From: Clostridiaceae bacterium BRH_c20a
Lineage (GTDB): Bacteria > Bacillota > Peptococcia > Peptococcales > BICA1-8
NCBI GenBank assembly: GCA_000961765.1
Contig: LADT01000080.1
Coordinates: 1-40,235 of the forward strand
Length of the DNA stretch: 40,235 nucleotides
Direction of reading: 5' to 3'
Positions 1,440 through 19,789 of the stretch are shown piece after piece. The notes under the pieces were generated by a model. The model had not been told where the DNA came from. It saw nothing but the letters and a program-made list of their open reading frames with translations, and ran no database searches. Every line of letters begins with the position of its first letter. The stretch's first letter is position 1. The translations under genes were made by a program, and so were the position numbers.

Positions 1440-3947
1440 ATGCAAAACTCTACAACAATTTTTACCCCTCAAGAAGAAAGGATGATTAATAACGAATTAC
1501 TATTGTCTGATAATGATGAAAAAAGGTTAAAAAGAGCAAGGATTTCTAGACTATTAAAAAATTTTAGAACCCAGCCCCCGAGAGTAAGCATCGAAAGGGC
1601 TAGATTATTTACTGAATCTTTTAAACAAACAGAATCTTTTCCGCTTGTACTTAGAAAAGCAAAGGCAATGCAAAAAATACTTAATGAATTAACCATTTAT
1701 ATCGAAGAAGATGAACTTATTGTAGGAACTTGTGGTGGACCGGGGAGACACGGTATTTTGTTTCCTGAACTTCGGGGTGGCTGGTTAAAAGAGAGTTTGG
1801 AGAACTTGCAGGAAACTGATGAAAATCCATTTCTTATTTCTGATGAGGATATTAAAATTCTTAAAGAGGAAATTTTGCCTTATTGGAATGGTAAAACAAC
1901 TCATGAGTCATATATAAGTATGCTTCCTGAAGAGACTAGGTATCTTGTATTTGGAAATGATAATTACTCTACTTTAGGTTTAATACAAGATAATGCAAAT
2001 ATTAATGCCACATTAAATTGGGCGGTTGATTATCAAAAGGTTTTGCAAAAAGGTTTTAATGGTATAAAAAAAGACGCAGAGGAACGATTAAATTCTTTGG
2101 ACACTTTAGACGCAGACAATAATTTTGATAAAGCATTTTTTCTTAAGGCTGTTATAATAGTTTGCGATGCCATAAATTCCTTTGCTCAACGATATGCGAA
2201 GCTAGCAAAAGAAATGGCAAAAGATGAAAAAGATGAAAAAGATGAGAAAAGAAGAATAGAGTTGGAAAAAATATCGGTAATTTGTGAACGGGTCCCTGCC
2301 CATCCAGCGAGAAATTTTCATGAAGCAGTACAAGCGCAGTGGTTTACTCAGCTCGCTTTACGGCTTGAACAACCCAACGCAGGAGTAATAGGAAATGGAC
2401 GAATAGATCAATATCTCTATCCTTCTTATATAAGGGATATAGAAGAAGGAGTTATAACTGAGGATATGGCTTTAGAAATACTTGAATGTCTCTGGGTTAA
2501 AATGGCGCAATTTGTGGCAATAAATGCAACTCGTGCTAAGTCCTTTTGGCAAGGTTACGCCCATTTTGAACAAGCTGTAATTGGTGGTCAAACAGAAGAG
2601 GGGCGAGATGCCACGAATCAATTATCCTATTTGATTTTGAAATCAAAAAAAGAATTTCCGATAAATTATCCTGATTTATCAGTGAGAATCCATTCGCAAA
2701 CCCCTGAACCCTTTTTGTGGGAGGTAGGTCAGTTAATAAGGGAAGGGGCGGGATTCCCCAAATTACTAAATGACGAGGCTATCATTCCAATGCTATTATC
2801 TCAAGGTGCTTCTCTTCGGGAAGCGAGAGATTACGCCGGTTGTGGTTGTACGGAAGTGAGGATGTTAAATAAAGATACATACTTAGCTCTTGGTGCAAGT
2901 ATCAATTTGCCAGCCGCTCTAGAAATGGCGTTAAATGACGGACTAGTTACTTTAAAAAGTGAAAAACAGCAACTAGGACCACGTACAGGGTTATTAAGAG
3001 ATTTTAGCAGCTTTAATCAGGTAATGGACTCTTTTAAAATGCAAGTTGAGTTTTTGATAAGACATTTTTATATCAGACAAAGCATGTTAGAAATGGTTAA
3101 TGCACAAAAATTAGCTGCCCCATTTACATCATGTCTTCATGATGTTTGTATGAAAGAGTGTCAAGATATTCATCAAGGAACTATTAAGGGTGCTAACTTT
3201 CAGGATACAGGAAATATAAATATTATTGGTTTTGGTACGGTGGTAGAATCATTGGCGGCGATTAAGAAAGTTGTATATGATGATAAATCTGTTGCGAAGG
3301 ATGAATTACTTCAAGCACTAGCTAATAACTTTCAAGGAAAAGAAGTAATTAGACAGATGCTTCTTAATGCTCCTAAATACGGCAATAATGATAGGTTTGC
3401 AGATAATGTTGCATGTGAAGTTGACGCGATGCTTTTAACTTGTGCCAATAAATTTAAAACCGTAAATGGAGTATCATTGCATGTTAAATTTGTACCAGTA
3501 ACTGCTCATGTAGGATTGGGTGCTTTGATAGGAGCGACCCCGAATGGAAGAAAAGCCGGGGAACCATTTTCCGAAGGTATCTCTCCTACCCAAGGAGTGG
3601 ATGTTAACGGACCAACAGCTACTTTATTATCTATTTCGAAAGCTAATAGTCAAAGATATGACAATAGTCAGTCAAGATTATTGAATATTAAATTAAGTCC
3701 TAAAACGGTGGATGGAGACAAAGGACTGAGAAATCTGGTTTCAATGATCAGGGCATGGTGTGACCAGAAGCATTGGCATTTGCAATTTAATATTATAAAT
3801 AGTGGTATCTTGCGAGAGGCCCAAAAAGACCCCGAAAAATATCGTAACCTTATAGTTAGAGTTGCTGGATATAGTGCTTATTTTGTTGATTTAAGTCCAG
3901 GGCTACAAAATGAAATAATAAGTAGAACGGAACATCAGGTTATGTAG
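1440..3947 (+). CDS. Glycyl radical enzyme (pyruvate formate-lyase superfamily), substrate unknown
   Basis: An 835-residue protein of normal family length. A glycyl radical would form at Gly810 in the C-terminal motif RVAGYSAYF. The active-site Cys is most likely Cys470 with Glu472 as its partner (Gly-Cys-Thr-Glu); Cys468 lies just before. The N-terminal half carries the usual PFL-like helical domain, including the segment GRHGILFPELRGGW. From memory, diol dehydratases and choline lyase have a His-Asp pair 11-12 residues after the Cys-x-Glu glutamate. Here those positions are Ala and Leu, which argues against a diol dehydratase. A decarboxylase or a new lyase class fits better but is unproven. 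A GATGAAAAA-type micro-repeat near 2221-2250 encodes Lys-Asp-Glu repeats. The start is supported by AGGAG 8 bp upstream. The next gene is its activase. Confidence 0.93.
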   Translation: MQNSTTIFTPQEERMINNELLLSDNDEKRLKRARISRLLKNFRTQPPRVSIERARLFTESFKQTESFPLVLRKAKAMQKILNELTIYIEEDELIVGTCGGPGRHGILFPELRGGWLKESLENLQETDENPFLISDEDIKILKEEILPYWNGKTTHESYISMLPEETRYLVFGNDNYSTLGLIQDNANINATLNWAVDYQKVLQKGFNGIKKDAEERLNSLDTLDADNNFDKAFFLKAVIIVCDAINSFAQRYAKLAKEMAKDEKDEKDEKRRIELEKISVICERVPAHPARNFHEAVQAQWFTQLALRLEQPNAGVIGNGRIDQYLYPSYIRDIEEGVITEDMALEILECLWVKMAQFVAINATRAKSFWQGYAHFEQAVIGGQTEEGRDATNQLSYLILKSKKEFPINYPDLSVRIHSQTPEPFLWEVGQLIREGAGFPKLLNDEAIIPMLLSQGASLREARDYAGCGCTEVRMLNKDTYLALGASINLPAALEMALNDGLVTLKSEKQQLGPRTGLLRDFSSFNQVMDSFKMQVEFLIRHFYIRQSMLEMVNAQKLAAPFTSCLHDVCMKECQDIHQGTIKGANFQDTGNINIIGFGTVVESLAAIKKVVYDDKSVAKDELLQALANNFQGKEVIRQMLLNAPKYGNNDRFADNVACEVDAMLLTCANKFKTVNGVSLHVKFVPVTAHVGLGALIGATPNGRKAGEPFSEGISPTQGVDVNGPTATLLSISKANSQRYDNSQSRLLNIKLSPKTVDGDKGLRNLVSMIRAWCDQKHWHLQFNIINSGILREAQKDPEKYRNLIVRVAGYSAYFVDLSPGLQNEIISRTEHQVM

Positions 3948-4042
3948 ATGGGCAGTGTGGGAGGGTAGACTATTTGGGGCAGAAAGTAATTTCCATATTG
4001 TTTTACCTATAATTTCTAAGGGTAATAAGGAAAGGGTTGGAT

Positions 4043-4975
4043 ATGTCTAATTTTATAAACAATAAGAGTGCTTTGGGTTGTGTTTTTAATATACAGAAAT
4101 TTTGTATCCATGATGGTCCGGGTATTAGAGATGTAGTTTTTGTTAAGGGGTGTCCCTTGAGCTGTAGGTGGTGTTGTAATCCGGAATCACAAAATATATT
4201 TATTGAATTAGCATATAAAGAAGGCAAATGTATTGGTGTTGGCGAATGTGGGCGTTGTTTGGAAATTTGTTCAGCAGATGCAATAAAAATATCCGAAAAT
4301 GAAAAACAGACAATTGAAATTGACAGAAGATTATGCCTGAATTGTGGAAACTGTGCTAAAGTATGTCCTTCTGCGGCATTAAACTTGATGGGTAAATTTA
4401 TATCTGTTCGTGAAGTGGTAGATTCTGTTTGTGAAAGTAATATCTTTTATAGGAGGTCTGGTGGAGGTATAACTGTAAGTGGTGGTGAGCCTCTACTGCA
4501 GGCTGAGTTTACTTATGATTTACTGAAAGAATGTCATAGGCTGGGAATTAGTACGGCAATAGAAACAAGCGGATATGCCTTATGGGGAGATGTGGAAAGA
4601 GTCTGCAAATATGTGGATTTAATATTTTATGATATTAAGTCTCTGAATTCTAACAAACATAGTGCTTTTACGGGCGTCCCTAATGAATTAATATTGGAGA
4701 ACCTCTTAAGAATATCAAAAAGTTTCCCAGAGATACCAATAATTGTGCGAACCCCTGTAATACCGGGGTTTAACCATACTGAAGATGATATTAGAAGTAT
4801 TGTGGAATTTATTAGTAGCATAAATAGTTTAAAACAATATGAACTATTAAATTACCATAACTTTGGTGAAGCTAAGTACCGGCAATTAGGCAGGGAGTAT
4901 TTAATGGCGGGGATTAAACCCTTAGATAAGGAATACTTTGAGGAATTACAAAACAGATACTCAATTCCCGGATAA
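4043..4975 (+). CDS. Glycyl radical enzyme activase (radical SAM)
   Basis: 310 residues. It uses S-adenosylmethionine and a [4Fe-4S] cluster to place the radical on Gly810 of the neighbouring enzyme. The radical-SAM triad is Cys37, Cys41 and Cys44 (CPLSCRWC). An inserted ferredoxin-like domain has two four-Cys sets (CIGVGECGRCLEIC, then CLNCGNCAKVCP), as in activases of the dehydratase and decarboxylase type rather than the short PFL activase. The SAM-binding GGE motif follows (VSGGEPLLQ). ATG at 4043 was chosen because AAGGAAAGG precedes it at normal spacing; the TTG at 4037 is too close to that site. The gene is 95 bp from the enzyme gene and is probably co-transcribed. Confidence 0.92.
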   Translation: MSNFINNKSALGCVFNIQKFCIHDGPGIRDVVFVKGCPLSCRWCCNPESQNIFIELAYKEGKCIGVGECGRCLEICSADAIKISENEKQTIEIDRRLCLNCGNCAKVCPSAALNLMGKFISVREVVDSVCESNIFYRRSGGGITVSGGEPLLQAEFTYDLLKECHRLGISTAIETSGYALWGDVERVCKYVDLIFYDIKSLNSNKHSAFTGVPNELILENLLRISKSFPEIPIIVRTPVIPGFNHTEDDIRSIVEFISSINSLKQYELLNYHNFGEAKYRQLGREYLMAGIKPLDKEYFEELQNRYSIPG

Positions 4976-4993: not shown

Positions 4994-5045
4994 TTTCAAA
5001 CAAATTGAGAGGAAAGCTTAGGCTTTCCTCTCAATTTGTTTGAAA
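4994..5045. terminator. 24-bp perfect convergent terminator overlapping the iclR 3' end
   Basis: 4994-5017 pairs perfectly with 5022-5045 around a 4-nt loop (TTAG). A-rich on the left, it can end both the activase transcript and the opposing IclR transcript. The right arm includes the last codons and the stop of the IclR gene. Confidence 0.88.
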
Positions 5046-5810
5046 GATGTTTTTAAAATCGGCTGATATTTTTTTTGCTGTTTCTTGAGTCCATTTAATA
5101 GTATCATCTTTATTTTCGGCGGTAATTCTCATCTTAGGTAAACTAATACTTAAGGCAGCAATTACTTTTTTATCAAAACCATAAATGGGCGAAGCTATGC
5201 AAAACAACCCAAGTTGAAATTCTTCATCGTCAATGATATACCCATTTTCTTGGATGAATTTTAAATCTTTAGTTAGATCTGAAAAACTGGTTTTTGTATG
5301 TGGTGTATATTTTTCCAGTGGGCTATTCACTAAAATTGCAAGCTCTTCTTCGCTAAAGTCTGATAAAAGGCATCTTCCTAATGCTGTGCAATATAGGGGA
5401 TAACGCTCACCTAAAATAAAATTTGGTCTAAGCAGGTGTTTTGAGTTTACATGCTTTATATATAACAAACTATTACTTTCTCTTACTGCTAGATTTACAT
5501 TTTCCCCGGTTTTCTCATTTAAATTTTTCATATGAATATAAGCTTTTTGTACTAACTCATTCATGTTTTTGGTAGAATAGTCTGCCTTTAATAACAGAAA
5601 ACCTAAGCGATATTTTTTATTCAAAGGATTTTGATAGATGTAACCTTTGAAAGCCAATGTGTTGACAATTCTTTGAACCGTACTTTCAGGCATATTTGCT
5701 AGACTACTTAATTCCGTTATGCCTAATTCTTCTTTATCGGTTTTAAAAGCTTCTAAAATATCTAAACCCTTTGCTAATGTCTGTATAAAAAACTTTGAAT
5801 TATACTCCAT
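5031..5810 (-). CDS. IclR-family transcriptional regulator
   Basis: 259 residues. An N-terminal winged helix-turn-helix (about residues 8-70, with ITELSSLANMPESTVQRIVNTL) is followed by a C-terminal effector-binding domain (about 80-255, with the family-typical YCTALGRCLLSDF and ASPIYGF segments). IclR proteins sense small organic acids or aromatic compounds and often control adjacent catabolic genes. It lies between the glycyl radical module and the divergent oxidoreductase operon. Matching inverted repeats occur upstream of both, so it is the likely regulator of the island. The start is supported by AGGAG upstream on the minus strand. The effector is unknown. Confidence 0.92.
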   Translation of the reverse strand: MEYNSKFFIQTLAKGLDILEAFKTDKEELGITELSSLANMPESTVQRIVNTLAFKGYIYQNPLNKKYRLGFLLLKADYSTKNMNELVQKAYIHMKNLNEKTGENVNLAVRESNSLLYIKHVNSKHLLRPNFILGERYPLYCTALGRCLLSDFSEEELAILVNSPLEKYTPHTKTSFSDLTKDLKFIQENGYIIDDEEFQLGLFCIASPIYGFDKKVIAALSISLPKMRITAENKDDTIKWTQETAKKISADFKNIFQTN

Positions 5811-6199
5811 AAGTCCAACTCCTTAAAATGAATAGTGATATCCCAATTCCTAATAATTATACAATTAACTTATCGGAATATCTAGTGTTTTTTGTTGAAT
5901 TATTGGCACTTTTAACCTAGAAAATTTTATCGTAAATGCATGAGTTAGTAGTAAATTATTATAAATAATAATTTCATGTCGACTAATTCTTAGATATTGC
6001 TACCTTAAGTAAAGTGGCGGGGTAAATAAAACTAAATATTATTTTTAAATAACGAGAAGGAATATGCCACAATGTGCAGAATAATAATTAACAAAATGGA
6101 ATTTACCATTCCAAAAATAATACAATAATGAAAATTTTAAAAATAGTAAAACTAATAAATTTTTATTTTTAATACCCAACTGAAAGGAGGTGTCTAGCA
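5811..6199. promoter_or_regulatory. Divergent promoter region between iclR and the oxidoreductase operon
   Basis: 389 bp, very AT-rich, with no gene. It should hold the promoters of both divergent units. The only clear element is the inverted repeat at 6097-6113. No confident -35/-10 pair was assigned. Confidence 0.6.
6097..6113. promoter_or_regulatory. Candidate IclR operator
   Basis: TGGAAT, five bases, ATTCCA: a perfect 6-bp inverted repeat about 87 bp before the first gene of the operon. The half-site resembles known IclR-type boxes, and the same layout occurs at 1399-1415. Binding is inferred. Confidence 0.5.
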
Positions 6200-6775
6200 A
6201 TGAAAGAAATAAGAATTCACGGTAGAGGTGGCCAAGGTTCCGTAGTAACAGCTGAACTATTTGGTCGAGCTGCTTTTCAGGGAGGAAAGTACTGCCAATC
6301 ATTTCCCTATTTAGGGGGTGGTGGAGAAAGGCGTGGAGCTCCAGTTCAAGCGTTTGCTAGAATTAGTGATGAGCCTATAAGAATACGTACAAAGATTCAC
6401 GAACCTGACTATATTATCGTTAAGGATATTACTCTGCTCCATATAATTGATGTTGCTGCAGGAATAAAACCTAATGGTATGATAATTGTTAATTCTGAAA
6501 AAAGTGCCGATGAATTAAACTTTGATAAAAGTTTAAATGTCAAAACAGTACCAGCTACAAAAATAGCATTAGAGATTCTAGGATTCCCTATCATGAATAC
6601 AGCTTTAATCGGAGCTTTTGCTGCTATCACTAGAGAATTTGATATTGAAGCTATTAAAAAAGCAATTTCTGAAAAGTTTAATGGGGAAATAGCAGAAAAG
6701 AATATTTTAGCTGCACAAACTGCTTACGATTTTGTGAATAAAGGGGAAAACATTTATTCGCAAAAGAAACCATGA
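6200..6775 (+). CDS. porC: 2-oxoacid:ferredoxin oxidoreductase, gamma subunit
   Basis: 191 residues, matching the gamma domain of pyruvate/2-oxoacid:ferredoxin oxidoreductases. It opens with the typical IRIHGRGGQGSVVTAELFG glycine-rich segment and then the GGGGERRGAPVQAFARIS segment. The complex oxidatively decarboxylates a 2-oxoacid to an acyl-CoA and reduces ferredoxin in the cytoplasm. AGGAGGTG lies just upstream of the ATG. It is the first gene of a gamma-beta-delta-alpha operon. Sequence alone does not fix the 2-oxoacid; the porC name reflects closest appearance only. Confidence 0.88.
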   Translation: MKEIRIHGRGGQGSVVTAELFGRAAFQGGKYCQSFPYLGGGGERRGAPVQAFARISDEPIRIRTKIHEPDYIIVKDITLLHIIDVAAGIKPNGMIIVNSEKSADELNFDKSLNVKTVPATKIALEILGFPIMNTALIGAFAAITREFDIEAIKKAISEKFNGEIAEKNILAAQTAYDFVNKGENIYSQKKP

Positions 6776-6793
6776 TTATAGGAGGATTTACTT

Positions 6794-7678
6794 ATGGTTA
6801 CGACCGAAAAACTAAACTTATTAGCCCCTGGGCATCGTGCTTGTCCTGGTTGTGGTGCAGCAATTGCCTTAAGGCAAATATTGAGGGTAGTTGGTAGAGA
6901 AACAATTGTTGTTTCAGCTACTGGATGTGTAGAAACATTTACATCGCCGTATGGACAGTCTGCTTGGGAAGTACCTTGGATGCATTCCTTATTTGAAAAT
7001 TCAGCTGCAGTTGCCTCCGGTGTCGAAGCTGCATTAGAAGCAAAAGGAGAAAAAGCTAATGTCGTAATTATTAGTGGAGACGGAGGAACTTTTGATATCG
7101 GTATGGGAGCTATGTCGGGGATGTTTGAGCGTAAGCATAACATAACATATATATGTTATGACAATGAAGCTTATATGAATACAGGGGTGCAACGAAGTAG
7201 TGCTACTCCATATGCTGCTACAACCACTACATCTCCTGCTGGTAAAAACTCTTACGGTAAAATGGAGTTTAAAAAAGACGTACCTGCAATTGCGCTGGCT
7301 CATGATGTAGAGTATGTAGCTACCACTTCTATCGCTTATCCACAAGACTTAATGAATAAAGTTAAAAAAGCTATTGGTATCAAAGGGCCTAAGTATATAC
7401 AAATTCACACACCATGCTGTATAGGCTGGGGTTTTGATTCCAGTCAAACTATTGCAATGGGTAAACTAGCAGCCGAAACAGGTCTTGTACCTTTATTTGA
7501 AGTTGAAAAAGGAAAACAAATGGTTGTAAGAAAGATAAAAAATACCAAGCCTATCCAGGAATATTTAAATAAACAAAATAGATTTAGGCATCTGGCTAAA
7601 GAGGATAAAGAAAAGATAATGGAAAAACTGCAAGAAATTTGTAATGACAATGTTAAGCGGTTTGGAATTAGTGAATAA
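6794..7678 (+). CDS. porB: 2-oxoacid:ferredoxin oxidoreductase, beta subunit (TPP-binding)
   Basis: 294 residues. It contains the CPGCG cluster-ligand segment near the N terminus. The thiamine-diphosphate site is GDGGTFDIGMGAMSG, followed by the NITYICYDNEAYMNTGVQRS segment typical of pyruvate-synthase-type beta subunits. A later Cys pair lies in HTPCCIGWG. It binds thiamine diphosphate and a [4Fe-4S] cluster, and catalyses decarboxylation with the alpha subunit. The similarity to pyruvate-type enzymes is strong, but homologues act on other 2-oxoacids. The gene is 18 bp after the gamma gene with its own AGGAGG. Confidence 0.9.
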   Translation: MVTTEKLNLLAPGHRACPGCGAAIALRQILRVVGRETIVVSATGCVETFTSPYGQSAWEVPWMHSLFENSAAVASGVEAALEAKGEKANVVIISGDGGTFDIGMGAMSGMFERKHNITYICYDNEAYMNTGVQRSSATPYAATTTTSPAGKNSYGKMEFKKDVPAIALAHDVEYVATTSIAYPQDLMNKVKKAIGIKGPKYIQIHTPCCIGWGFDSSQTIAMGKLAAETGLVPLFEVEKGKQMVVRKIKNTKPIQEYLNKQNRFRHLAKEDKEKIMEKLQEICNDNVKRFGISE

Positions 7679-7692
7679 AGTGAGGGATTATT

Positions 7693-7944
7693 ATGCTAAC
7701 CATAGGTGCTGTTTGTGAGGCTGGAAAATCACGTTTAAACAAAACAGGAAGTTGGCGTGATTATTATCCTGAAATAACAGCGAAATGTACCGGTTGTGGC
7801 ATTTGCGAACTTTTTTGCCCGGATAGTTCTATAACAATTATAGATAAGAAATGCATTATCAATTATGACTACTGTAAGGGATGCGGAATTTGCGCAAATG
7901 AATGTCCGAAGACAGCGATACTAATGAAGGAAGAGAGGAAGTAA
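7693..7944 (+). CDS. porD: 2-oxoacid:ferredoxin oxidoreductase, delta (ferredoxin) subunit
   Basis: 83 residues, a 2x[4Fe-4S] ferredoxin-type subunit. The two cluster motifs are CTGCGICELFCP and CKGCGICANECP. It passes electrons from the TPP site towards external ferredoxin. The gene lies between beta and alpha, and its stop is one base before the alpha start, indicating translational coupling. Confidence 0.92.
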   Translation: MLTIGAVCEAGKSRLNKTGSWRDYYPEITAKCTGCGICELFCPDSSITIIDKKCIINYDYCKGCGICANECPKTAILMKEERK

Positions 7945-7945
7945 A

Positions 7946-9130
7946 ATGAGTAGAACTGCAGTTATGGAGGGTTCATTCGCAGTTGCAGAAGCTGTTAAGG
8001 CATGTAGGCCTGAGGTTATAGCAGCTTATCCAATCAGCCCTCAAACTCACATAATTGAAGAATTGTCAAAATATGTGGCTGATAATGAATTAAGTTCTAA
8101 ATATGTTAGGGCGGACTCGGAATTTTCAGCTGCTTCTATTGTATACGGTTCTAGTGGTACTGGAGCAAGATCATATACCGCTTCCTCTTCCCAGGGGCTA
8201 TTATTAATGACAGAAGTACTATATGCAATGGCAGGAACCAGATTGCCTGTAGTTTTAACAGGTGTTAATAGAACTGTATCTGCTCCAATTACTATTCAGC
8301 CTGACCATCAGGATACTATGGCTTTACGAGATACGGGTGTTATTCAAATTTATGTTGAAAATATTCAAGAGGCATATGCCACCCATATTCAAGCTTTTAA
8401 ACTGGCAGAAGATCATGATATTTTACTTCCGGTGATGGTATGTATGGATGGCTGGATTCTTACACATACCTTTGAACCTGTAAAAATAGAAGAACAAGAA
8501 TTAGTCGATAAGTTTTTACCGCCTTTTGTACCCAAGTACCGCTTAGATCCTAAAAATCCTTTAACATATGGTTCGTATGGAGATGACGAAGTTCCTGAAT
8601 TTAGATATATGATGCATTTTGCTATGGAAAAAGCTAAAACAAAAATACAATTAATAGCTGAAGAGTATAAAGAAATATTTGGGGATTATTTTGGTGGACT
8701 TACTGAAGCATATAAGTGTGAGGATGCAGAAATAATTCTTGTAGCTATGGGTTCTGTAATTGGAACTATTAAAGAAACGATTGATCAATTAAGGTCTGAA
8801 GGCAAGAAAGTGGGAGTACTCAAAGTTAGAACATATCGTCCGTTTCCGGCAGAAGAAATTTTTGAAATAGTTAAAAATGCCAAAATTGTTGCTGTTATTG
8901 ATAAGAGCATCTCCGTCGGACAGGGAGGTCAATTAGCAACAGATATTAAAGCGGCTTTAATAAATAAGAAAACGCCGCCGTTAGTTTATAGTTGTATTGC
9001 TGGTATGGGTGGGCGAGAAGTGAATATTAATACTGTAAAATATATCATAAATAAAAGTGAAAATTCACTTATAACTAATCAAGTACCAGATATAGATTAT
9101 ATTGAAATTAAACGGCAATATTTAGAGTAA
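7946..9130 (+). CDS. porA: 2-oxoacid:ferredoxin oxidoreductase, alpha subunit
   Basis: 394 residues, the usual size. The N-terminal pyrimidine-binding domain shows AYPISPQTHIIEELSKY and SEFSAASIVYGSSGTGARS. The C-terminal part (about 250-390) has the transketolase-like segment GVLKVRTYRPFPAEEI and a GGREVN motif. It completes the thiamine-diphosphate active site with the beta subunit. With gamma, beta and delta it forms one complex. Because no CoA-transferase or acyl-CoA synthetase lies in the island, this complex is the best candidate for generating the acyl-CoA that feeds the downstream dehydratase (inference). Confidence 0.92.
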   Translation: MSRTAVMEGSFAVAEAVKACRPEVIAAYPISPQTHIIEELSKYVADNELSSKYVRADSEFSAASIVYGSSGTGARSYTASSSQGLLLMTEVLYAMAGTRLPVVLTGVNRTVSAPITIQPDHQDTMALRDTGVIQIYVENIQEAYATHIQAFKLAEDHDILLPVMVCMDGWILTHTFEPVKIEEQELVDKFLPPFVPKYRLDPKNPLTYGSYGDDEVPEFRYMMHFAMEKAKTKIQLIAEEYKEIFGDYFGGLTEAYKCEDAEIILVAMGSVIGTIKETIDQLRSEGKKVGVLKVRTYRPFPAEEIFEIVKNAKIVAVIDKSISVGQGGQLATDIKAALINKKTPPLVYSCIAGMGGREVNINTVKYIINKSENSLITNQVPDIDYIEIKRQYLE

Positions 9131-9135
9131 TTGTA

Positions 9136-9185
9136 CCCACATCTATAAATACAATGTGGGCGGGCAACACATTGTATGTGTTGCC
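9136..9185 (+). promoter_or_regulatory. Mutually exclusive hairpins in the porA-SDR spacer
   Basis: Hairpin A pairs CCCACAT (9136-9142) with ATGTGGG (9154-9160). Hairpin B pairs GGCAACACAT (9163-9172) with ATGTGTTGCC (9176-9185). A competing 8-bp stem pairs ACAATGTG (9151-9158) with CACATTGT (9168-9175) and excludes both. No T run follows, so an RNA processing or translation switch is more likely than a terminator. Confidence 0.5.
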
Positions 9186-9244
9186 TATAAAATATTTAAG
9201 AGCAGTATTATAAATATTTCTACTAAGTCTAGAGGGGTGAAATA

Positions 9245-10015
9245 ATGCATTATACTCTAAGTTTTAAAGATAAAATTGTTGCTGTGACCGGAGCAAGTAA
9301 AGGAATAGGAAGAAGTATTGCTGTTGGATTTGGGTCATTAAGGGCTCATGTTATACTTATAAGTCGTACATCGGAGTTGTTAGAAGAAACAGCTACAATG
9401 GTCAGAGAAGTTGGTGGTACAGCAAGTGTTATTTCAGCAGATTTAAATCAATTAGATGAAATACAAAAAGTAGTCTCTGAAATAAAAAGCACTTTTAAAA
9501 CCTTAGATGTGTTAGTAAACAATGCGGGTATTTCCAAAAGAAAACCTTCCACTGAAATCACGGAGATTGAGTGGGATAGTATTTTAAATACAAATTTAAA
9601 GTCGTATTTTTTTATGAGTAGTATGGTAGCTGAACAGATTATGATACCACAAGGGTATGGTAAGATTGTAAATACAGCTTCTATCGGGGGAATCGTAGGT
9701 ATAACAAGATCAGCGCCTTATAGTTCAAGCAAAGGTGGAGTAGTAATGTTAACAAAGGTATTAGGGTGTGAATGGGCAAAACACAACATCCAAGTTAATG
9801 CTGTTGCTCCTGCATATATTAGAACTGAATTAATTGCTAAGGCTATTGAGAATAAAGAATTTCTTGAAACTATAGAAAATCGGACACCGGCAAGAAGACT
9901 GGGAGAACCCGAAGAAGTGGTAGGCGGTGTTTTATATCTTGCGTCACATTTAGCTAGTTATGTAACGGGGCAAGTATTAGCAATTGATGGAGGGCTTACG
10001 GCTTACGGAGTTTAA
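9245..10015 (+). CDS. Short-chain dehydrogenase/reductase (SDR)
   Basis: 256 residues, a classical SDR. The cofactor motif is TGASKGIG near residue 17, the NNAG motif lies in VLVNNAGIS, and the catalytic Tyr-x3-Lys is YSSSK with the upstream Ser in NTASIGG. It resembles gluconate 5-dehydrogenase / 2-deoxy-gluconate 3-dehydrogenase (KduD-like) and FabG-type enzymes that interconvert hydroxyl and oxo groups with NAD(P)H. It lies between the oxidoreductase and the dehydratase genes, so it probably oxidises or reduces an intermediate of the pathway. The start is supported by GAGGGGTG upstream. The substrate is not determined. Confidence 0.9.
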   Translation: MHYTLSFKDKIVAVTGASKGIGRSIAVGFGSLRAHVILISRTSELLEETATMVREVGGTASVISADLNQLDEIQKVVSEIKSTFKTLDVLVNNAGISKRKPSTEITEIEWDSILNTNLKSYFFMSSMVAEQIMIPQGYGKIVNTASIGGIVGITRSAPYSSSKGGVVMLTKVLGCEWAKHNIQVNAVAPAYIRTELIAKAIENKEFLETIENRTPARRLGEPEEVVGGVLYLASHLASYVTGQVLAIDGGLTAYGV

Positions 10016-10047
10016 AAAACAGAATGGTTGGAAACGGAGGAAAGTAA

Positions 10048-11496
10048 ATGAAAACTGGACAGGAGTACATAGAAAGTTTAAAAGATTTAAAGACAGAGGT
10101 ATATTTTGAGACAGCAAAGATAGAACCATTAGTTGGGCACCCCTTATTACAACCGCATATTAATGCTGCAGCTGTTACTTATGATTTTGCCCATGATCCT
10201 CTTTATGAAGATTTAGCTACTACGACATCCCATTTAACAGGTAAAAAGATAAATAGGTTTACCCATATTCATCAGAATAAAGACGATCTGGTAAAGAAAG
10301 TAAAGCTCCTAAGATTGATAGCTCAACAAACAGGTTCGTGCTTTCAGCGCTGTGTTGGTTTTGATGCTTTAAATGCAGTTTATTCGACAACATTTGATAT
10401 GGATCAAAAATTGGGCACTGATTATCATAAACGTTTAGTAGATTACTTATTATACGTACAGGAAAATGATTTAATGATCGCGGGGGCAATGACTGACCCC
10501 AAGGGGGACCGTGGTCTTGGTCCTTCTGAGCAGGCTGATCCCGATCTTTTTGTTCGCATTGTAGAAAAAAATGATAAGGGTATTATTATACGGGGTGCAA
10601 AAGCTCATATGACAGGAATGGTTAATTCACATGAAATGTTAATTATGCCAACCGGAGCAATGAAAGATGCTGATAAGGATTATGCAGTTGCATGTGCTAT
10701 ACCCGTAGATGCTCCTGGTATTATTCACATATTTGGACGTCAGACAAATGATAAACGCAAATTTGATGAAATGGACCAGGGTAACACAAAATACGGTATA
10801 GTTGGTGGAGAATGTCTCACAGTATTAGAAGATGTATTTGTCCCTTGGAATAGAGTTTTCATGTGTGGGGAATATGAATTTGCCGGGTCTCTTGTTGAAA
10901 GGTTTGCTACTTTACATCGACAAAATTACGGTGGTTGTAAAGCTGGCGTTAGCGATGTAGTCACAGGGGCTACCGCTGCAATTGCTGAGTATAATGGTGC
11001 CGCGAAAGCATCTCATATCAAGGATAAATTAGTAGAGATGATTCATCTGACGGAAACTCTTTATTGTTGTTCCATAGCTTGTTCTCAGGAAGGTGGAAAA
11101 CTAGCATCGGGTGCCTATTATCCTAATGCATTATTAGGTAATGTAGTGAAACAGAATGTAACTAGATATATTTATGAAATTGACCGTATTTGTCAGGATA
11201 TTGCAGGTGGGTTTATTGCAACCTTGCCTTCGGAAAAAGACTTTAACGATGAGAAATTGGGAGGTTACATTAAGAAGTATTTTGCTGGAAAAGCTGATTA
11301 TCCAACAGAACATCGTTACAGGATGGCGAGGCTTATTGAAAATATGACAGGCGGAACTGCTTTGGTCGAAAGTATGCATGGAGCAGGTTCTCCTCAAGCG
11401 CAGCGGATAATGCTGTTAAGAAGTGGAAATCTGCTACATAAGGTTAAACTTGCTCAAAAGTTAGCCGGGATAACAACAGATAATTTAGTAAAGTAG
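10048..11496 (+). CDS. abfD: 4-hydroxybutyryl-CoA dehydratase
   Basis: 482 residues. It converts 4-hydroxybutyryl-CoA to crotonyl-CoA using FAD and a [4Fe-4S] cluster through a ketyl-radical mechanism. The known cluster ligands of the Clostridium aminobutyricum enzyme (three Cys and one His) are all present: Cys98 and Cys102 in SCFQRC, and His290 and Cys297 in LHRQNYGGC. This separates it from the related 4-hydroxyphenylacetate 3-hydroxylase flavoproteins, which lack the cluster. A flavin/substrate-region segment AGAMTDPKGDRGLGPSEQ is also typical. The crotonase, dehydrogenase and thiolase downstream would take crotonyl-CoA to acetyl-CoA. The start is supported by a GGAGG-type site. Confidence 0.93.
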   Translation: MKTGQEYIESLKDLKTEVYFETAKIEPLVGHPLLQPHINAAAVTYDFAHDPLYEDLATTTSHLTGKKINRFTHIHQNKDDLVKKVKLLRLIAQQTGSCFQRCVGFDALNAVYSTTFDMDQKLGTDYHKRLVDYLLYVQENDLMIAGAMTDPKGDRGLGPSEQADPDLFVRIVEKNDKGIIIRGAKAHMTGMVNSHEMLIMPTGAMKDADKDYAVACAIPVDAPGIIHIFGRQTNDKRKFDEMDQGNTKYGIVGGECLTVLEDVFVPWNRVFMCGEYEFAGSLVERFATLHRQNYGGCKAGVSDVVTGATAAIAEYNGAAKASHIKDKLVEMIHLTETLYCCSIACSQEGGKLASGAYYPNALLGNVVKQNVTRYIYEIDRICQDIAGGFIATLPSEKDFNDEKLGGYIKKYFAGKADYPTEHRYRMARLIENMTGGTALVESMHGAGSPQAQRIMLLRSGNLLHKVKLAQKLAGITTDNLVK

Positions 11497-11505
11497 TTGA
11501 ATATT

Positions 11506-11796
11506 ATGATTAAAATAGGCGTAAAGTTTTGTGGTAATTGTAACCCGGATATTGATACAAAAAAGTTATTTCTAAATTTACGAAATGGGTTAAAGGAAAG
11601 TATAGAATTTGTGTATTGGGAGCAAGATGCTTATGAAATTTTATTAGTTTTAAATGGCTGCAATGTTGCTTGTGCTGAACATCCGATTTTTATGGGAACA
11701 TCTATCATAATAGCTGGAGAAACATTAGATTATGTTTCAATAATAGAAGAAGACCTATTATTAGAGATAGAGAGAAAAATAGAAAAACTAAAATAG
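11506..11796 (+). CDS. Small Cys-rich protein of unknown function
   Basis: 96 residues. I do not recognise the family with confidence. It has an N-terminal CGNCNP motif, a second Cys pair in NGCNVACAEH, and a Glu/Lys-rich C-terminal helix. Two CxxC-like elements suggest metal, Fe-S or redox chemistry. It starts 9 bp after the abfD stop, at ATG 11506; an in-frame TTG at 11497 directly abuts the abfD stop. The ribosome site is weak, so translation may be coupled to abfD. The position suggests a helper for the dehydratase, such as cluster maintenance or electron supply. That role is an inference. Confidence 0.75.
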   Translation: MIKIGVKFCGNCNPDIDTKKLFLNLRNGLKESIEFVYWEQDAYEILLVLNGCNVACAEHPIFMGTSIIIAGETLDYVSIIEEDLLLEIERKIEKLK

Positions 11797-11836
11797 AGAT
11801 TTTAAGTAAAATTGCTATATATTGCGAGGTGGAAAA

Positions 11837-12613
11837 TTGACAAATCTTTTATATAAGGTTGACGGTAAAATAGCAGAAGTTACAATAAACCGACCACAAG
11901 TCTTAAATACTTTAAGCTATCAAGTGCTAGAGGAGCTATTAGGTTTATTGCAAGATGTTGCTCTAAATTCGGAAATTAAAGTTTTAATTATTACGGGTTC
12001 AGGTAGTAAAGCTTTTATTGCCGGTGCTGATATTGGCGAAATGCAAAGTTATTCAATTTTGGAAGCGAAAAAGTTTTCTAAATTAGGTCAACAAGTATTT
12101 TTAACTCTCGAAAATTTAAACCAGGTAACAATAGCTGCAGTTAACGGCTATGCTCTAGGTGGAGGCTGTGAACTTAGTTTATCTTGTGATATTCGATTTG
12201 CCTCTGAAAATGCTAAATTTGCTTTACCTGAGGTAAAGCTAGGAATAATACCAGGCTTTGGAGGAACACAAAGGCTACCAAGATTGATAGGATCTGGTAT
12301 TGCAAAGGAATTGATTTTTTCCGGCGAAATAATTGATGTCCAAGAGGCTTACCGTATTGGTTTAGTCAACAAGATATTTAACCAAGAGGATTTATTGGCA
12401 AAAACTTGGGAGTATGCTGAAAAAGTTTGTAGTAATGGAACTTATGCTGTTTCATTAGCTAAGTCAGTAATTAATTATGGTTTAAATAAAGATTTAGAAA
12501 ACGCATGTAACTATGAAGCTCAAGTGTTTAGTGAGTGTTTTATTACTAAGGACCATAAAGAGGGAATAAATGCTTTTCTTGAAAAAAGAAGTCCGGAATT
12601 TATAGGAAGCTAA
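11837..12613 (+). CDS. Enoyl-CoA hydratase (crotonase)
   Basis: 258 residues. It hydrates crotonyl-CoA to 3-hydroxybutyryl-CoA. The oxyanion-hole segments are AFIAGADIGEM and YALGGGCELSLSCD. The two catalytic glutamates are in GGGCE and in LPEVKLGIIPGFGGTQ. TTG at 11837 was chosen because the Shine-Dalgarno sequence GAGGTGG sits 4-5 bases upstream; the more distal TTG at 11822 has no such site. It is part of the beta-oxidation-type trio with the next two genes. Confidence 0.93.
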   Translation: MTNLLYKVDGKIAEVTINRPQVLNTLSYQVLEELLGLLQDVALNSEIKVLIITGSGSKAFIAGADIGEMQSYSILEAKKFSKLGQQVFLTLENLNQVTIAAVNGYALGGGCELSLSCDIRFASENAKFALPEVKLGIIPGFGGTQRLPRLIGSGIAKELIFSGEIIDVQEAYRIGLVNKIFNQEDLLAKTWEYAEKVCSNGTYAVSLAKSVINYGLNKDLENACNYEAQVFSECFITKDHKEGINAFLEKRSPEFIGS

Positions 12614-12642
12614 CTGGTTTATTGTTGGGAGGTTAAAATGTA

Positions 12643-13479
12643 ATGAAAGTGATTGTTTGTGGTGCCGGTACTATGGGCTCGGGCATTGCTCAGGTTATTG
12701 CTCAAAAAGGAAATAAAGTAGTTATTGTTGATAAAACAGAGGATTTAGTTTCAAAGGGAATAATCGGAATAAATAAAACTTTAGAGAAAATTGTGGCAAA
12801 AGGCAAGCTAGGACTCAGTGAAAAAGAACTAATTATGGGAAATATAACTGTAAGTACGTCGCTTAACATTAAGGATGCTTCTTTAGTTATTGAAGCAATT
12901 TTTGAAAATATGGAAGCTAAGAAAGAAATTTTTAAAGAATTAGATAGTTCCTGTCCTGCAGATACTATTTTTGCCTCAAATACATCAAGTTTAAGTATTA
13001 GTGAAATGGCTGCAGTAACTAAACGACCGGATAGATTTATTGGTATACACTTCTTTAACCCGGCACCTGTCATGGAACTAGTTGAGGTTATTAAAGGAGC
13101 TAATACCAGTGAAGAAACTATTAATAAAACAAGATCCTTTATAAAATCTATTGGGAAGACTCCAGTTGAGGTTCAAGAATCACCAGGTTTTGTTGTTAAT
13201 AGGATGCTGGTGCCTATGATTAATGAAGCTATCTTTATTTTGATGGAAGGTGTTGCCTCCGCAGAGGATATTGACGCGGCAATGAAAATGGGTGCTAATC
13301 ACCCCATTGGACCTTTAGCTTTAGCAGACCTTATTGGGCTGGATGTTTGTTTGTTTGTGATGGAAACACTTTACAATGAATTTGGAGATGATAAGTATCG
13401 TCCGTGTCCGCTATTAAGAAAAATGGTAAGAGCAGGACATTTAGGGAGGAAAACCGGGAAAGGCTTTTTTAGCAGTTAA
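12643..13479 (+). CDS. hbd: 3-hydroxybutyryl-CoA dehydrogenase
   Basis: 278 residues. It oxidises 3-hydroxybutyryl-CoA to acetoacetyl-CoA with NAD(P). The Rossmann motif GAGTMGSGIAQ is at the N terminus. The HFFNPAPVMELVE segment carries the catalytic His and Glu, and SSLSISEMA is also typical. The C-terminal domain ends in GRKTGKGFF. The leader reads ATGTAATG: a start-stop codon pair at 12638-12643 overlaps the real ATG at 12643. GGGAGG at 12627-12632 is 5 bases from the first ATG and 10 from the second, so reinitiation is possible. Confidence 0.94.
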   Translation: MKVIVCGAGTMGSGIAQVIAQKGNKVVIVDKTEDLVSKGIIGINKTLEKIVAKGKLGLSEKELIMGNITVSTSLNIKDASLVIEAIFENMEAKKEIFKELDSSCPADTIFASNTSSLSISEMAAVTKRPDRFIGIHFFNPAPVMELVEVIKGANTSEETINKTRSFIKSIGKTPVEVQESPGFVVNRMLVPMINEAIFILMEGVASAEDIDAAMKMGANHPIGPLALADLIGLDVCLFVMETLYNEFGDDKYRPCPLLRKMVRAGHLGRKTGKGFFSS

Positions 13480-13507
13480 TTTACAAAAAAAGTAGGTGAA
13501 TGAAAAT

Positions 13508-14713
13508 ATGAGGTTTGAAGATGTCGTTATTGTTAGTGCTTGTAGAACTGCGATTGGTAAATTCCTTGGAGGTTTAAAGAATGTTTCGGCTCGGGAATTA
13601 GCTATTACCGTAGGTAAAAGTGCTATTGAAAGAGCAGGAATAACCTCTGATATTATTGATGAATTAACCATGGGACAGCTTTATACTGCGATGCAAGGCT
13701 CTTTGCCTGCAAGACAAGCTGCAATACGGATTGGTTTGCCTTTTCGAAGTAGTGCGGTAAGTGTAAATCAAAACTGTGCTTCAGGAATGCGAGCGTTAGA
13801 AATAGCTTGTCATAATATTATGCTAGGTAAAACACAAGTAGCCTTGGTTATTGGTGTAGAGAGTATGAGTAATGCTCCTTATTTACTTCCTGGTGCTAGA
13901 ATGGGTTACAGGATGAATGGGGCTAATATCGAGGATCATATGATCCATGATGGATTATATGATGAATTAGTACCTGGACACATGGCAATAACTGCAGAAA
14001 ATGTAGCTGAGAAATATAATATTTCAAGAGTTGAATGTGATGAACTGGCTCTAATGAGCCATACAAGAGCAATAAAAGCTATAGATGATGGCAGATTTAA
14101 ACAAGAAATAATACCTGTTGAAATTAGGACGAGGCAAGAAGTAAAGATTTTTGATATTGATGAACATCCGATTCGGGGTGCAAGGCTAGAAGAAATGGGT
14201 AATTTAAAACCTGTTTTTAAAAAAGATGGGGTAGTTACTGCAGCAAATGCCGCAGGTATAAATGATGGTGCGGCAGCAGTAGTCGTTATGTCAAAAAGTA
14301 GAGCAGAGGAATTAGGATTAAAGCCATTAATGAAATTAATTAATATTTGCAGTGCAGGAGTGGACCCTAAATATATGGGTATTGGTCCGGCGGTTGCAAT
14401 TCCAAAATGTTTAAAGCAGGTAAAAATGGCATTTGAAAATATAGAATATTGGGAAATTAATGAAGCTTTCGCAGCTCAATTCTTGGGAGTAAGTAAAGTA
14501 CTTGAAGAGGCAAGTGGAATAAAGATGGACCTACATAGAATTAATCATAATGGTTCCGGAATTGCTCTTGGTCACCCAGTTGGATGTACCGGTTTACGAA
14601 TAATTGTATCGTTATGTTATGAGATGGAGCGTCTTGGGTTGTCATATGGTGGAGCTTCCTTATGTGTTGGTGGAGGACCGGCAATGGCTTCATTGTGGAC
14701 ACGTGACTTGTAA
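13508..14713 (+). CDS. thlA: Acetyl-CoA acetyltransferase (thiolase)
   Basis: 401 residues. It cleaves acetoacetyl-CoA with CoA to two acetyl-CoA, or the reverse. The nucleophilic Cys lies in NQNCASGMRALE. The His motif is NHNGSGIALGHPVG and the second Cys is in CVGGGPAMA. Small departures from the usual consensus (Ala before Ser at the first site, Ser-Gly rather than Gly-Gly or Gly-Ala at the His motif, Pro in the last) may reflect a distinct acyl preference. ATG at 13508 lies about 9 bp after AGTAGGTGA; the GTG at 13496 overlaps that site. A terminator follows. Confidence 0.93.
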   Translation: MRFEDVVIVSACRTAIGKFLGGLKNVSARELAITVGKSAIERAGITSDIIDELTMGQLYTAMQGSLPARQAAIRIGLPFRSSAVSVNQNCASGMRALEIACHNIMLGKTQVALVIGVESMSNAPYLLPGARMGYRMNGANIEDHMIHDGLYDELVPGHMAITAENVAEKYNISRVECDELALMSHTRAIKAIDDGRFKQEIIPVEIRTRQEVKIFDIDEHPIRGARLEEMGNLKPVFKKDGVVTAANAAGINDGAAAVVVMSKSRAEELGLKPLMKLINICSAGVDPKYMGIGPAVAIPKCLKQVKMAFENIEYWEINEAFAAQFLGVSKVLEEASGIKMDLHRINHNGSGIALGHPVGCTGLRIIVSLCYEMERLGLSYGGASLCVGGGPAMASLWTRDL

Positions 14714-14854: not shown

Positions 14855-16216
14855 GTGTTAAAAATATTGCTGGAGAGATTAGCGGTCATAAGTATTTTAA
14901 GTTTAGTTTTACTAATTTTTGTGCAAGAGTTTTTAAATGCGCAATTTTTATTTTTAGAAACTTTAGTACTTATTTTAGTTGTTTTCATCTGTATTGTGCG
15001 AGCCCGTGGTAGTGCATTATACATAAGTTTGATAACCTTAGTTGTCGGGCATGTTCTTTTATTTAAATATGAGATGGGGTATACGGTATGGTTTGAAGCT
15101 ATCACTAAAAATGTACCTTTGGGGGTACTTTTTGTAATGGTACCGGTTTTAATAATCCCTATAAAAATTGGGGGTTATTTAGAGGCTTTTAATTATTACA
15201 TTAGTAAATATTTCACAAAGAGCCATAGTATATTTAGCATTTTATCCAGTTTTGTTTTTGGTCTGGGCTCTATTACTAACCTAGGTGCTCTTAGAATAAC
15301 GTATTCTCTAATTGAAAATATCAAACTCCCTAAAAAATTCCTAGCAAAGGTATTTGGAGTAGGCTTTTCCTCATGTATGTGTTGGTCGCCGTACTTTGCT
15401 TCTGTAAACCTTGTCCTTTATTATACAGGAGTATCTTTTGGGGATTATTTCTTTTTTGGATTTTTATATGGTATTTTAATGTTGCTTCTCGGTAATCTTT
15501 TGTTTTATTTCGATTTACCCTTACGAAATGAGTTAAAGGCAACTTTAAAAGTATCTCCTTTAATCGAGGGTAATAAGAAAAAAATGATCCAATTGATATT
15601 TAATCTTGTGCTATTATATGTAGTGGTTGTTCTTGGAGAAAAAATTACTAAGTTTAGTAGCATAATGCTTTTAGTTAGCTTTATAGCGGCATTCTATGGT
15701 GCTATTTGGTCTGTGTTTCTGAAGAAGTTTCACCGTTTTTGGTTAGAATTAAAAAGCTATGACCAAAGTATTTTACAGGTCACTAACGAATTCGTTTTTT
15801 TTATTTGTGTGGGCTTTTTCGGAGTAATACTGGCTAAGGCACCGGTACATTATTTTATTGAAACTGCTTTTCGAAGCATTTCGGGTTTATCACCATTTCT
15901 TCTGGTGGAATTTATTATTATCATAACGGTTTTGCTTTCAAGCATAGGTTTTCATCATGTTATAACTATAACTACTTTTGCTCTTTCCTTAAAACCCGCG
16001 ATGCTTGGATTGAGTGATATTGCCTTTACACTTACTTTAGTTGTAGCTTATACAATATCCATGATTATTTCTCCTTTTGTACCTGCCAACATGGTAATTG
16101 GAGGGCTCATTCAAGAAAAAACTTTTGTCATAGGTCTTAAATGGAATCGAAATTTTGGTTTTATAGTTATTGTTATTTCAGGTATTTATATCATTCTTGT
16201 AAATAGGTTGTTTTAG
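14855..16216 (+). CDS. Polytopic membrane permease, ion-transporter-like
   Basis: 453 residues, almost wholly hydrophobic, with roughly 11-13 predicted membrane segments. The overall pattern, with two halves and Gly/Ser-rich re-entrant-like stretches (FGLGSITNLGALR, SSCMCWSPYFASVN), resembles the DcuC/CitM/NhaD-like carboxylate or ion transporter superfamily. I cannot name the exact family. It starts with GTG at 14855 and has only a weak ribosome site. Next to the catabolic operon, it may import the substrate acid. The frame stays open for 36 codons beyond its TAG stop (to about 16324), with protein-like composition. Confidence 0.75.
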   Translation: MLKILLERLAVISILSLVLLIFVQEFLNAQFLFLETLVLILVVFICIVRARGSALYISLITLVVGHVLLFKYEMGYTVWFEAITKNVPLGVLFVMVPVLIIPIKIGGYLEAFNYYISKYFTKSHSIFSILSSFVFGLGSITNLGALRITYSLIENIKLPKKFLAKVFGVGFSSCMCWSPYFASVNLVLYYTGVSFGDYFFFGFLYGILMLLLGNLLFYFDLPLRNELKATLKVSPLIEGNKKKMIQLIFNLVLLYVVVVLGEKITKFSSIMLLVSFIAAFYGAIWSVFLKKFHRFWLELKSYDQSILQVTNEFVFFICVGFFGVILAKAPVHYFIETAFRSISGLSPFLLVEFIIIITVLLSSIGFHHVITITTFALSLKPAMLGLSDIAFTLTLVVAYTISMIISPFVPANMVIGGLIQEKTFVIGLKWNRNFGFIVIVISGIYIILVNRLF

Positions 16217-16681: not shown

Positions 16682-16996
16682 ATGAAAAGAATGGAAGGAC
16701 GAGTTTTGGTTGGAGGCACTGCTCAACCACCAAAAGAAATAACGGTATATAATATAATGACTGTTCAACTTCTTATCGATTTAGAAACGGGTTGTATAGT
16801 TGAATCTCATTTTAATCTTATATCTCCCCTTACTCAGGCATGTTTGAAGGAATTGATTAACGGATATTGTGTGAATAACTCGTTGGAGCCGTTATTTAAT
16901 GAGATTAAAACAAAAATTTGCCTCTCAACAACTGGATCGTTAATACAAGCAATAAAAAATGCTGTAGATAGGTATAAGGATAGAGTGAAAAAATAA
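16682..16996 (+). CDS. DUF3870 protein
   Basis: 104 residues. The pattern matches the DUF3870 family: an N-terminal GTAQPPKEITVYNI segment, then VQLLIDLETGCIVES, a middle LINGYCVNN segment, and a helical TGSLIQAIKNAVDRY end. It is soluble and has no signal peptide. Its function is unknown. It is a single gene with GGGAG upstream, placed after the catabolic island. The family assignment rests on remembered consensus. Confidence 0.75.
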   Translation: MKRMEGRVLVGGTAQPPKEITVYNIMTVQLLIDLETGCIVESHFNLISPLTQACLKELINGYCVNNSLEPLFNEIKTKICLSTTGSLIQAIKNAVDRYKDRVKK

Positions 16997-17404: not shown

Positions 17405-17527
17405 TGTATTTGCTAATCTAAAACTGAGCCACTTAATCAGCAATTGCTGATAAAAAAATGAGCCACCTTAATCAATAATCCTGTATGCTAAAAGTTGACT
17501 AGACCATTGCGTACAGGAGGAAAAGGA

Positions 17528-19035: not shown

Positions 19036-19036
19036 T

Positions 19037-19789
19037 ATGGCGAAAACAATATTATTAGAGACTTACTTAAAACAGTTAAAACTCCCCTCAGTATTGAAAA
19101 ATTATGAGGCATTAGTAAGAGAAGCAGCTGATTTAAATCAGACCTTTGAGGAATTTCTGTTTTGTTTAATTGAGCAAGAAGTAATTCAGAGAGACGAAAA
19201 CAATTTAAGAAGAAGATTAAGGTATGCTAAATTCCCAACTACCAAAACTTTAGAAACCTTTGAATTTAGTGCCATTCCCAGATTGAATAAAAACAAGGTA
19301 CTAACCTTAAGTCGTGGTGGCTATATCGAGGATAAAGAAAATATTATTATGGTTGGGAATGCAGGTACTGGTAAGACCCACCTAGCAACAGCCCTTGCTA
19401 CTTGTGCTTGCCGTGAAGGTTTTAAAGTGAGATTTTATAATGTAGCTGGCTTAGTAAATGAACTGCTCCAAGCTCAGAGTGAGCATCAATTAATCAGATT
19501 TGAGAAACAGTGGCTCAAGTTTGACCTAGTAGTTTTAGATGAACTTGGCTATATTCCCTTTAATACTAAGGGTTCTCAATTATTGTTCCAATTCTGCTCT
19601 AGCCGTTATGAAAGAGGTAGTATGATTATTACGACTAATTTAGAATTTGCTGATTGGACTCAAGTATTTGGAGAAGAAAAATTAACTGCGGCATTACTTG
19701 ATAGACTTACCCATCGTTGTCATATCTTACAGATGAATGGTGATAGCTATCGGTTTAAACAAAGTTTACAGCGTAGTAAAGAACAATAA
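19037..19789 (+). CDS. istB: IstB ATPase helper of IS21
   Basis: 250 residues, AAA+ ATPase of the DnaC/IstB type. Walker A is GNAGTGKTHLATAL and Walker B is LVVLDELGYIPF. It aids IstA in target selection and strand transfer. The start lies one base after the istA stop, the typical coupled layout. It looks intact. Confidence 0.94.
   Translation: MAKTILLETYLKQLKLPSVLKNYEALVREAADLNQTFEEFLFCLIEQEVIQRDENNLRRRLRYAKFPTTKTLETFEFSAIPRLNKNKVLTLSRGGYIEDKENIIMVGNAGTGKTHLATALATCACREGFKVRFYNVAGLVNELLQAQSEHQLIRFEKQWLKFDLVVLDELGYIPFNTKGSQLLFQFCSSRYERGSMIITTNLEFADWTQVFGEEKLTAALLDRLTHRCHILQMNGDSYRFKQSLQRSKEQ

Follow-up and report, generated by a model that had tools for sequence, protein, structure and literature searches.

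What reaction is catalyzed by the glycyl radical enzyme (GRE) encoded at 1440–3947 on the forward strand of contig LADT01000080.1 is the question raised by this 40,235-nucleotide stretch (hereafter the window) from Clostridiaceae bacterium BRH_c20a, a genome that holds six GREs. By open reading frame, profiles, alignment and tree, the 835-residue product is, on its sequence, a genuine GRE, a radical enzyme sensitive to oxygen. It matches solved GREs over nearly the whole length (E values down to 1.5e-250), carries the C-x-E eliminase motif Gly469-Cys470-Thr471-Glu472 (2844–2855, forward strand), and has the expected glycyl radical site, Gly810 (3867–3869, forward strand), within the loop RVAGYSA and aligned to Gly805 of the sulfite-lyase IslA. 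A gene for a radical S-adenosylmethionine GRE activase lies directly downstream (4037–4975, forward strand; 350 bits to TIGR02494, cut-off 174, and 412 bits to NF048010, under the cut-off of 430). Cys470-Thr-Glu472, Gly810 and a dedicated activase together are what defines a GRE of the eliminase (C-x-E) type.

A preliminary description of this locus pointed to the Gly-Cys-Thr-Glu active site and to Ala-Leu at the eleventh and twelfth positions after the glutamate (Glu+11/+12), and both are indeed present: bases 2811–2910 encode about residues 458–490, Glu472 is followed by VRMLNKDTYLALGASINLP, and Ala483-Leu484 lies just 3' of the motif. It also took as a distinguishing mark the lack of His-Asp, a pair that it placed at these positions in diol dehydratases and choline lyase. 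The pair does stand there in glycerol dehydratase 1r8w, but choline lyase 9f3w has Thr-Ser, and 1r8w is the only one of 90 aligned GREs with His-Asp, in an alignment gathered by likeness to the window GRE in which diol dehydratases are thus under-represented. The missing pair is therefore no anomaly. The corresponding residues are Ser-Gly in IslA (5ymr) and in the sulfite-lyase HpsG (6lon), and the commonest pair outside the branch of IslA, HpsG and the clade described below is Leu-Thr (21 of 48 rows). Pyruvate formate-lyase (PFL) has Cys-Cys at its active site, and the difference from it is borne out by Gly469-Cys470 and by a score of 134.5 bits against the PFL cut-off of 994. The suggestion of a decarboxylase-like enzyme is not supported: the models for the arylacetate decarboxylases HPAD and IAD gave 341 bits (cut-off 1150) and 396 bits (cut-off 1100). 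The suggestion of a new subfamily is upheld, by other evidence: a clade outside the characterized sulfite-lyases and pocket residues specific to the group. Clustering inside a characterized GRE family, which would speak against novelty, was looked for in the tree and not seen, and the solved IslA and HpsG share 45–47% identity with the window GRE.

In a midpoint-rooted IQ-TREE tree of 50 rows, the window GRE and nine others form one clade (support 100/99), here termed NNK after Asn189, Asn193 and Lys683. The NNK clade is sister to, and not nested in, a 27-row clade (100/100) that contains IslA, HpsG and their sampled relatives, and 13 more distant GREs fall outside both. Among the alignment rows, 11 belong to the NNK clade (10 distinct genes, since L042 and L099 are the same gene), 31 to the IslA/HpsG branch and 48 to neither. 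The window GRE is 54–69% identical to members of its own clade (64–69% to its B branch and 54–56% to its A branch) and 42–53% identical to the 31 IslA/HpsG-branch rows. In a published GRE network, edges at about 60% identity were used to part mechanistically distinct GREs (PMC6453916). By this yardstick the window GRE joins the B branch and no member of the IslA/HpsG branch, and a further specificity could lie in the A branch; the yardstick is rough, because IslA and HpsG, at 61–64% identity, exceed it.

The clade was found in seven genomes, with two GRE copies each in the source genome, Clostridiales K_7_2_bin.50 (G163) and Bacillota SKS3.bin19; the others are Desulfoscipio geothermicus (G376), Desulfallas sp. 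Bu1-1 (G443), G129 and G478. A scan of genome contigs with two short motifs returned 56 loci, of which six belong to the NNK clade and lie in four named genomes, all Bacillota; beyond Bacillota, clade members were sought by short motifs, without a whole-protein search. A scan of genome contigs with a single GRE protein as query gave no match. Among the literature matches listed, no title or abstract opening links a GRE with a LarA racemase or treats this clade. These results support the placement of the window GRE in a small, uncharacterized subfamily of eliminase-class GREs, sister to the sulfite-lyases.

The substrate pocket sets this subfamily apart from its sister clade. In IslA the sulfonate is bound by Arg189, Gln193 and Arg678 (PMC8473560), which are said to be conserved across IslA/IseG sequences in two reports (PMC8473560, PMC6453916). 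In the alignment, the beta-1 stretch of the window GRE (1992–2018, forward strand) has Asn185, Asn189 and Asn193 for IslA Thr185, Arg189 and Gln193; Phe376 (2565–2567, forward strand) replaces Trp374; and Lys683 and Val687 (3486–3500, forward strand) replace Arg678 and Phe682. Asn189, Asn193, Gly315 (at the place of IslA Thr312), Phe376, Lys683 and Val687 are found in all 11 NNK rows. The IslA/HpsG branch has Arg189 in 31/31 rows, Arg678 in 31/31, Trp374 in 27/31 and Gln193 in 23/31, the remaining rows having Asn (five) or Ala (three) at position 193; one pocket comparison used 23 chosen IslA/HpsG-like rows and omitted the eight branch rows that lack Gln193. The NNK clade, with Asn, Asn and Lys, thus lacks the sulfonate ligands of the IslA/HpsG sulfite-lyases. 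By spacing, Asn185 would match the place of CutC Tyr208, and the Asn residues of strand 1 may form a ladder.

The closest solved enzymes are IslA/IseG (5ymr and 7kq3; 837 and 810 bits, 45–47% identity), which share the C-x-E motif, the Gly loop and the fold but differ from the window GRE in the four residues replaced by Asn, Asn, Lys and Phe and in lying in the sister clade. HpsG (6lon), which acts on 2,3-dihydroxypropane-1-sulfonate (DHPS), follows at 804 bits and 46.5% identity; it groups with IslA in the tree, and the window GRE lacks its sulfonate ligands. B12-independent glycerol dehydratase 1r8w has the same motif and fold (superposition Z 40.8) at 39% identity but carries, besides its His-Asp, His at position 193 where the window GRE has Asn. 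The trans-4-hydroxy-L-proline dehydratase HypD and choline lyase CutC are likewise C-x-E eliminases (Z 39–44), and the aligned CutC (9f3w) resembles the window GRE in lacking His-Asp; their family models give the window GRE 603 bits (cut-off 1100) and 581 bits (cut-off 1050). An AlphaFold2 model (mean predicted local distance difference test score, pLDDT, 79; predicted template modeling score 0.85) superposes on IslA with Z of 43.4 and 43.0, on HpsG with 43.0, on CutC within 43–44 and on propanediol dehydratase within 40–44, against 35 for hydroxyphenylacetate decarboxylase, 39 for arylacetate decarboxylase and 29 for PFL. With differences within 1 read as ties, with many eliminases only a few Z units apart and with a few also at 39, the predicted fold supports the eliminase class and cannot rank substrates.

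The database name is a separate matter. NF048011, "(2S)-3-sulfopropanediol dehydratase", scores the window GRE at 1071.9 bits (cut-off 1000), and its scores for other GREs are 1558 for IslA (5ymr), 1509 for HpsG (6lon), 1580 for L026, 1430 for L100 and 1140 for L045 from Myxococcota. Among eight clade rows, five exceed 1000 (the window GRE, L024, L042, L043 and L098) and three do not (L016, L025 and L032). Since the model ranks IslA ahead of HpsG and its cut-off falls within the clade, little can be read from the name, which is likely wrong for the window GRE.

What the enzyme acts on was approached through its gene company in eight other clade loci with flanking sequence: a second locus on contig C27 of the source genome, L048, G163:C23, G163:C17, G129, G478, D. 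geothermicus and Desulfallas. L043 was omitted from the counts, its contig ending just after the GRE, and D. geothermicus and Desulfallas are not independent, because their clusters are 96–99% alike. All eight loci carry an activase, a DUF3870 relative no more than 4.3 kb from the GRE, and a TctABC or TAXI-TRAP importer (families checked on members; carboxylate types). LarA-like genes occur in five, HIBADH-like genes in four, aldehyde:ferredoxin oxidoreductase (AOR) genes in three (one cut by a contig end), and GlcD-GlcF and PGDH-like genes in two each. The G478 cluster adds SucCD and two 2-oxo-acid oxidoreductase sets, of which the alpha subunits, like SucCD, score over their NCBIfam cut-offs and the beta subunits under; sugar-acid-dehydratase-like genes, all under NCBIfam cut-offs, lie in two clusters. 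The five LarA-like proteins are 58–82% identical to each other, and none of the three scanned reaches the cut-off of any of the five LarA-type models matched. Compared at four published specificity positions, they match no class described in the available part of the source (PMC11770544). All five (L021 7496–8794, L105 6904–8202 and three more) have Gly in or near the place of LarA Trp358, where Gly or Gln stands depending on the alignment, and a conserved AGGQRAY stretch.

Within the window, part of this company lies 12.7–19.5 kb downstream of the GRE, where a DUF3870 gene (16682–16996), an AOR remnant (19804–20214; 76% to the G163:C23 AOR), a GlcD-type FAD 2-hydroxy-acid dehydrogenase (20731–22224; 78% to its G163:C23 counterpart) and a GlcF-type iron-sulfur partner (22225–23475; 63%), all on the forward strand, are 63–81% identical to the G163:C23 cluster. 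The window AOR looks broken, because the remnant has 136 amino acids against 571 in its G163:C23 relative; an IS21-type istA/istB pair (17495–19789, by recognition) lies between it and the DUF3870 gene. DUF3870 was dropped as a GRE-specific partner: it occurs in 55 of 396 genomes of the phylum, and no GRE was seen within about 1.5 kb on each side of the 30 best-matching DUF3870 loci. A probable membrane transporter (14855–16216, forward strand), called by sequence and without a Pfam or NCBIfam match, has a relative (47%) that adjoins GlcF in the G129 cluster.

Taken with the pocket, this gene company leads us to consider the window GRE a putative C-x-E eliminase of a hydroxylated carboxylic acid, and of neither isethionate nor DHPS, a reading to which we give about even chances. 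The AOR and HIBADH-like genes would suit a product that is an aldehyde-acid; LarA and the 2-hydroxy-acid dehydrogenases point to a 2-hydroxy acid, Kor/SucCD to a 2-oxo acid, and a C4–C5 acid would fit this company best. Our single best guess, a tentative and rather unlikely one, is a C4–C5 substrate of the sugar-acid type that would give a malate- or 2-hydroxyglutarate-level product. By homology to IslA and other eliminases, the activase would generate the radical on Gly810, from which it would pass to Cys470 as a thiyl; the thiyl would take the hydrogen from the carbon that bears the hydroxyl, Glu472 would hold this hydroxyl and take its proton, and the group on the next carbon would leave to give a carbonyl product. 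Asn185, Asn189 and Asn193 on strand 1, with Lys683 on strand 8, would replace the sulfonate clamp. The product, an aldehyde- or oxo-acid, might then be oxidized by AOR, HIBADH-like, GlcDF or PGDH-like enzymes, while a LarA-type racemase would correct the stereochemistry at C2 and Kor/SucCD would make ATP in one cluster.

Several observations weigh against a hydroxycarboxylate eliminase. The gene company varies between loci, and the pocket loops of the structural model are of low confidence, with residues 687–720 below a pLDDT of 50. Asn at position 193 also occurs in 5/31 and Phe at 374 in 4/31 of the IslA/HpsG-branch rows, so that only Asn189 and Lys683 cleanly mark the clade. Moreover, position 193 is His in 45 of the 48 rows outside the IslA/HpsG and NNK groups; with Asn in its place, water as a leaving group would lack its usual acid, and simple dehydration is therefore disfavored. 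Finally, dsrA is over its cut-off in 6/6 clade genomes searched (six of the seven, SKS3.bin19 being left out), compared with 55 of the 396 genomes sampled from the phylum, and its presence would suit an enzyme that releases sulfite.

This last point also belongs to the main rival, which we regard as possible but doubtful: that the enzyme still cleaves a C-S bond, in a remodeled sulfonate pocket, with conversion of 3-sulfolactate to pyruvate and sulfite as the most plausible reaction. Sulfolactate would then be racemized by LarA and sulfolactaldehyde oxidized by AOR, with DsrAB receiving the sulfite. The sister relationship to the sulfite-lyase clade agrees with this, as does Lys683, which retains one positive charge, and so does the finding that aprA is over its cut-off in only 3/6 clade genomes; the source genome, G163 (80% complete) and G129, with no aprA over the cut-off, appear to respire sulfite and not sulfate. 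Also in favor, the C27 cluster of the source genome holds two ComC-like dehydrogenases (295 and 309 bits, short of the cut-off of 500) and one PGDH-like dehydrogenase, and SlcC and ComC homologs occur in known sulfolactate loci (PMC12421959). Against it, Arg189, Gln193, Arg678 and Trp374 each give way to another residue, and the UxaA-type lyase of C27 is 36% identical to two SuyB references, which were identified from their loci (hpsN/hpsO; a sulfate-exporter gene) and not by annotation, compared with 42–44% to three other UxaA proteins. The C27 UxaA pair was accordingly dropped as a SuyAB candidate, its large subunit being closer to other UxaA than to SuyB. dsrA is also present in G026, G028, G030 and G033, none of which matches the window GRE at E 1e-200. 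Since relatives lacking a GRE of this kind carry it too, the dsrA link may reflect descent, and dsrA was downgraded as proof of sulfite release. Five of the six genomes also have an AprA-like paralog (G000:C46:43352-45028 and four other genomes; 381–424 bits, TIGR02061 cut-off 642), and two of these five have AprA over the cut-off as well.

Cleavage of a C-N bond, or elimination from some other amino or quaternary-ammonium substrate, appears improbable. C-N-cleaving GREs exist and superpose well on the model (CutC, HplG), and Asn193 would leave the pocket without the acid needed for water, but no amine- or choline-linked gene was recognized in the eight neighborhoods, most genes of which were not library-scanned, and the importers checked are of carboxylate types.

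About equally unlikely is a role for the GRE in the neighboring 4-hydroxybutyryl-CoA operon (5031–14713), for which it would make a C5 2-oxo acid precursor of 4-hydroxybutyryl-CoA. The operon, which separates the GRE and its activase from the DUF3870-GlcDF stretch, comprises genes for IclR, PorCBDA, SDR, 4-hydroxybutyryl-CoA dehydratase (611 bits to 1u8v), p99 (11497–11796; without a match in Pfam or NCBIfam at the cut applied), crotonase, HBDH and thiolase. The dehydratase is found in 29/396 phylum genomes at E 1e-180, and 3/8 dehydratase neighborhoods (L141, L142 and L144) combine PorCBDA, dehydratase, SDR, p99 and thiolase with no GRE in 16–19 kb, whereas the module was not seen in the eight other GRE-clade neighborhoods. 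Because a like module recurs in other Bacillota without a GRE, the operon was dropped as the pathway of the GRE and is unfit for inferring its substrate; we judge it a separate catabolic unit, outside the GRE system. That the window GRE is an ordinary HpsG, a DHPS sulfite-lyase, is very improbable despite its score over the NF048011 cut-off, since Arg189 and Arg678 are absent, the clade lies outside that of HpsG, and the model prefers IslA and rejects three of the eight clade rows.

Other GREs encountered in the comparison vary in their own ways. L045–L047 (Myxococcota), L011, L019, L020 and L033 are IslA/HpsG-branch GREs with other pockets (Arg189, Ala193 and Trp, or Arg189, Asn193 and Phe) and possibly represent more specificities. 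L044 and L100–L104 form a GRE clade with an HpsG-like pocket, and a GntR, MFS, SDR, GRE and activase set is present in the four G376-class genomes read, G472, G477, G481 and G453 (Desulfocucumis palustris). Elsewhere in the window, 26026–36065 contains, by recognition, ArsR- and ACR3-like genes and a two-component system with a binding protein, and also an ArrA-like molybdenum oxidoreductase operon (NF041714 1193 bits, below the cut-off of 1600), just after which lies a molybdenum/tungsten cofactor riboswitch (RF01055, 36302–36440, 95 bits).

The equivalog NF048011 names proteins outside the clade of characterized enzymes, and claims of DHPS or sulfonate respiration based on it therefore need a check of the sulfonate residues. 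The NNK clade itself is a defined and testable target, with one GRE, one activase and few candidate substrates. Few enzymes other than GREs can open unactivated C-O, C-N, C-S and C-C bonds in the absence of oxygen, and GREs of new specificity have uncovered previously unknown anaerobic nutrient routes. Tentatively, and with doubt outweighing confidence, we propose that in these Dsr-bearing Bacillota an eliminase for a hydroxycarboxylate used by no known GRE works with a nickel-pincer racemase of unassigned specificity to turn a sugar-acid-type nutrient into 2-hydroxyglutarate- or malate-level acids. If this is true, anaerobic carbon metabolism would gain a new, radical-based point of entry.

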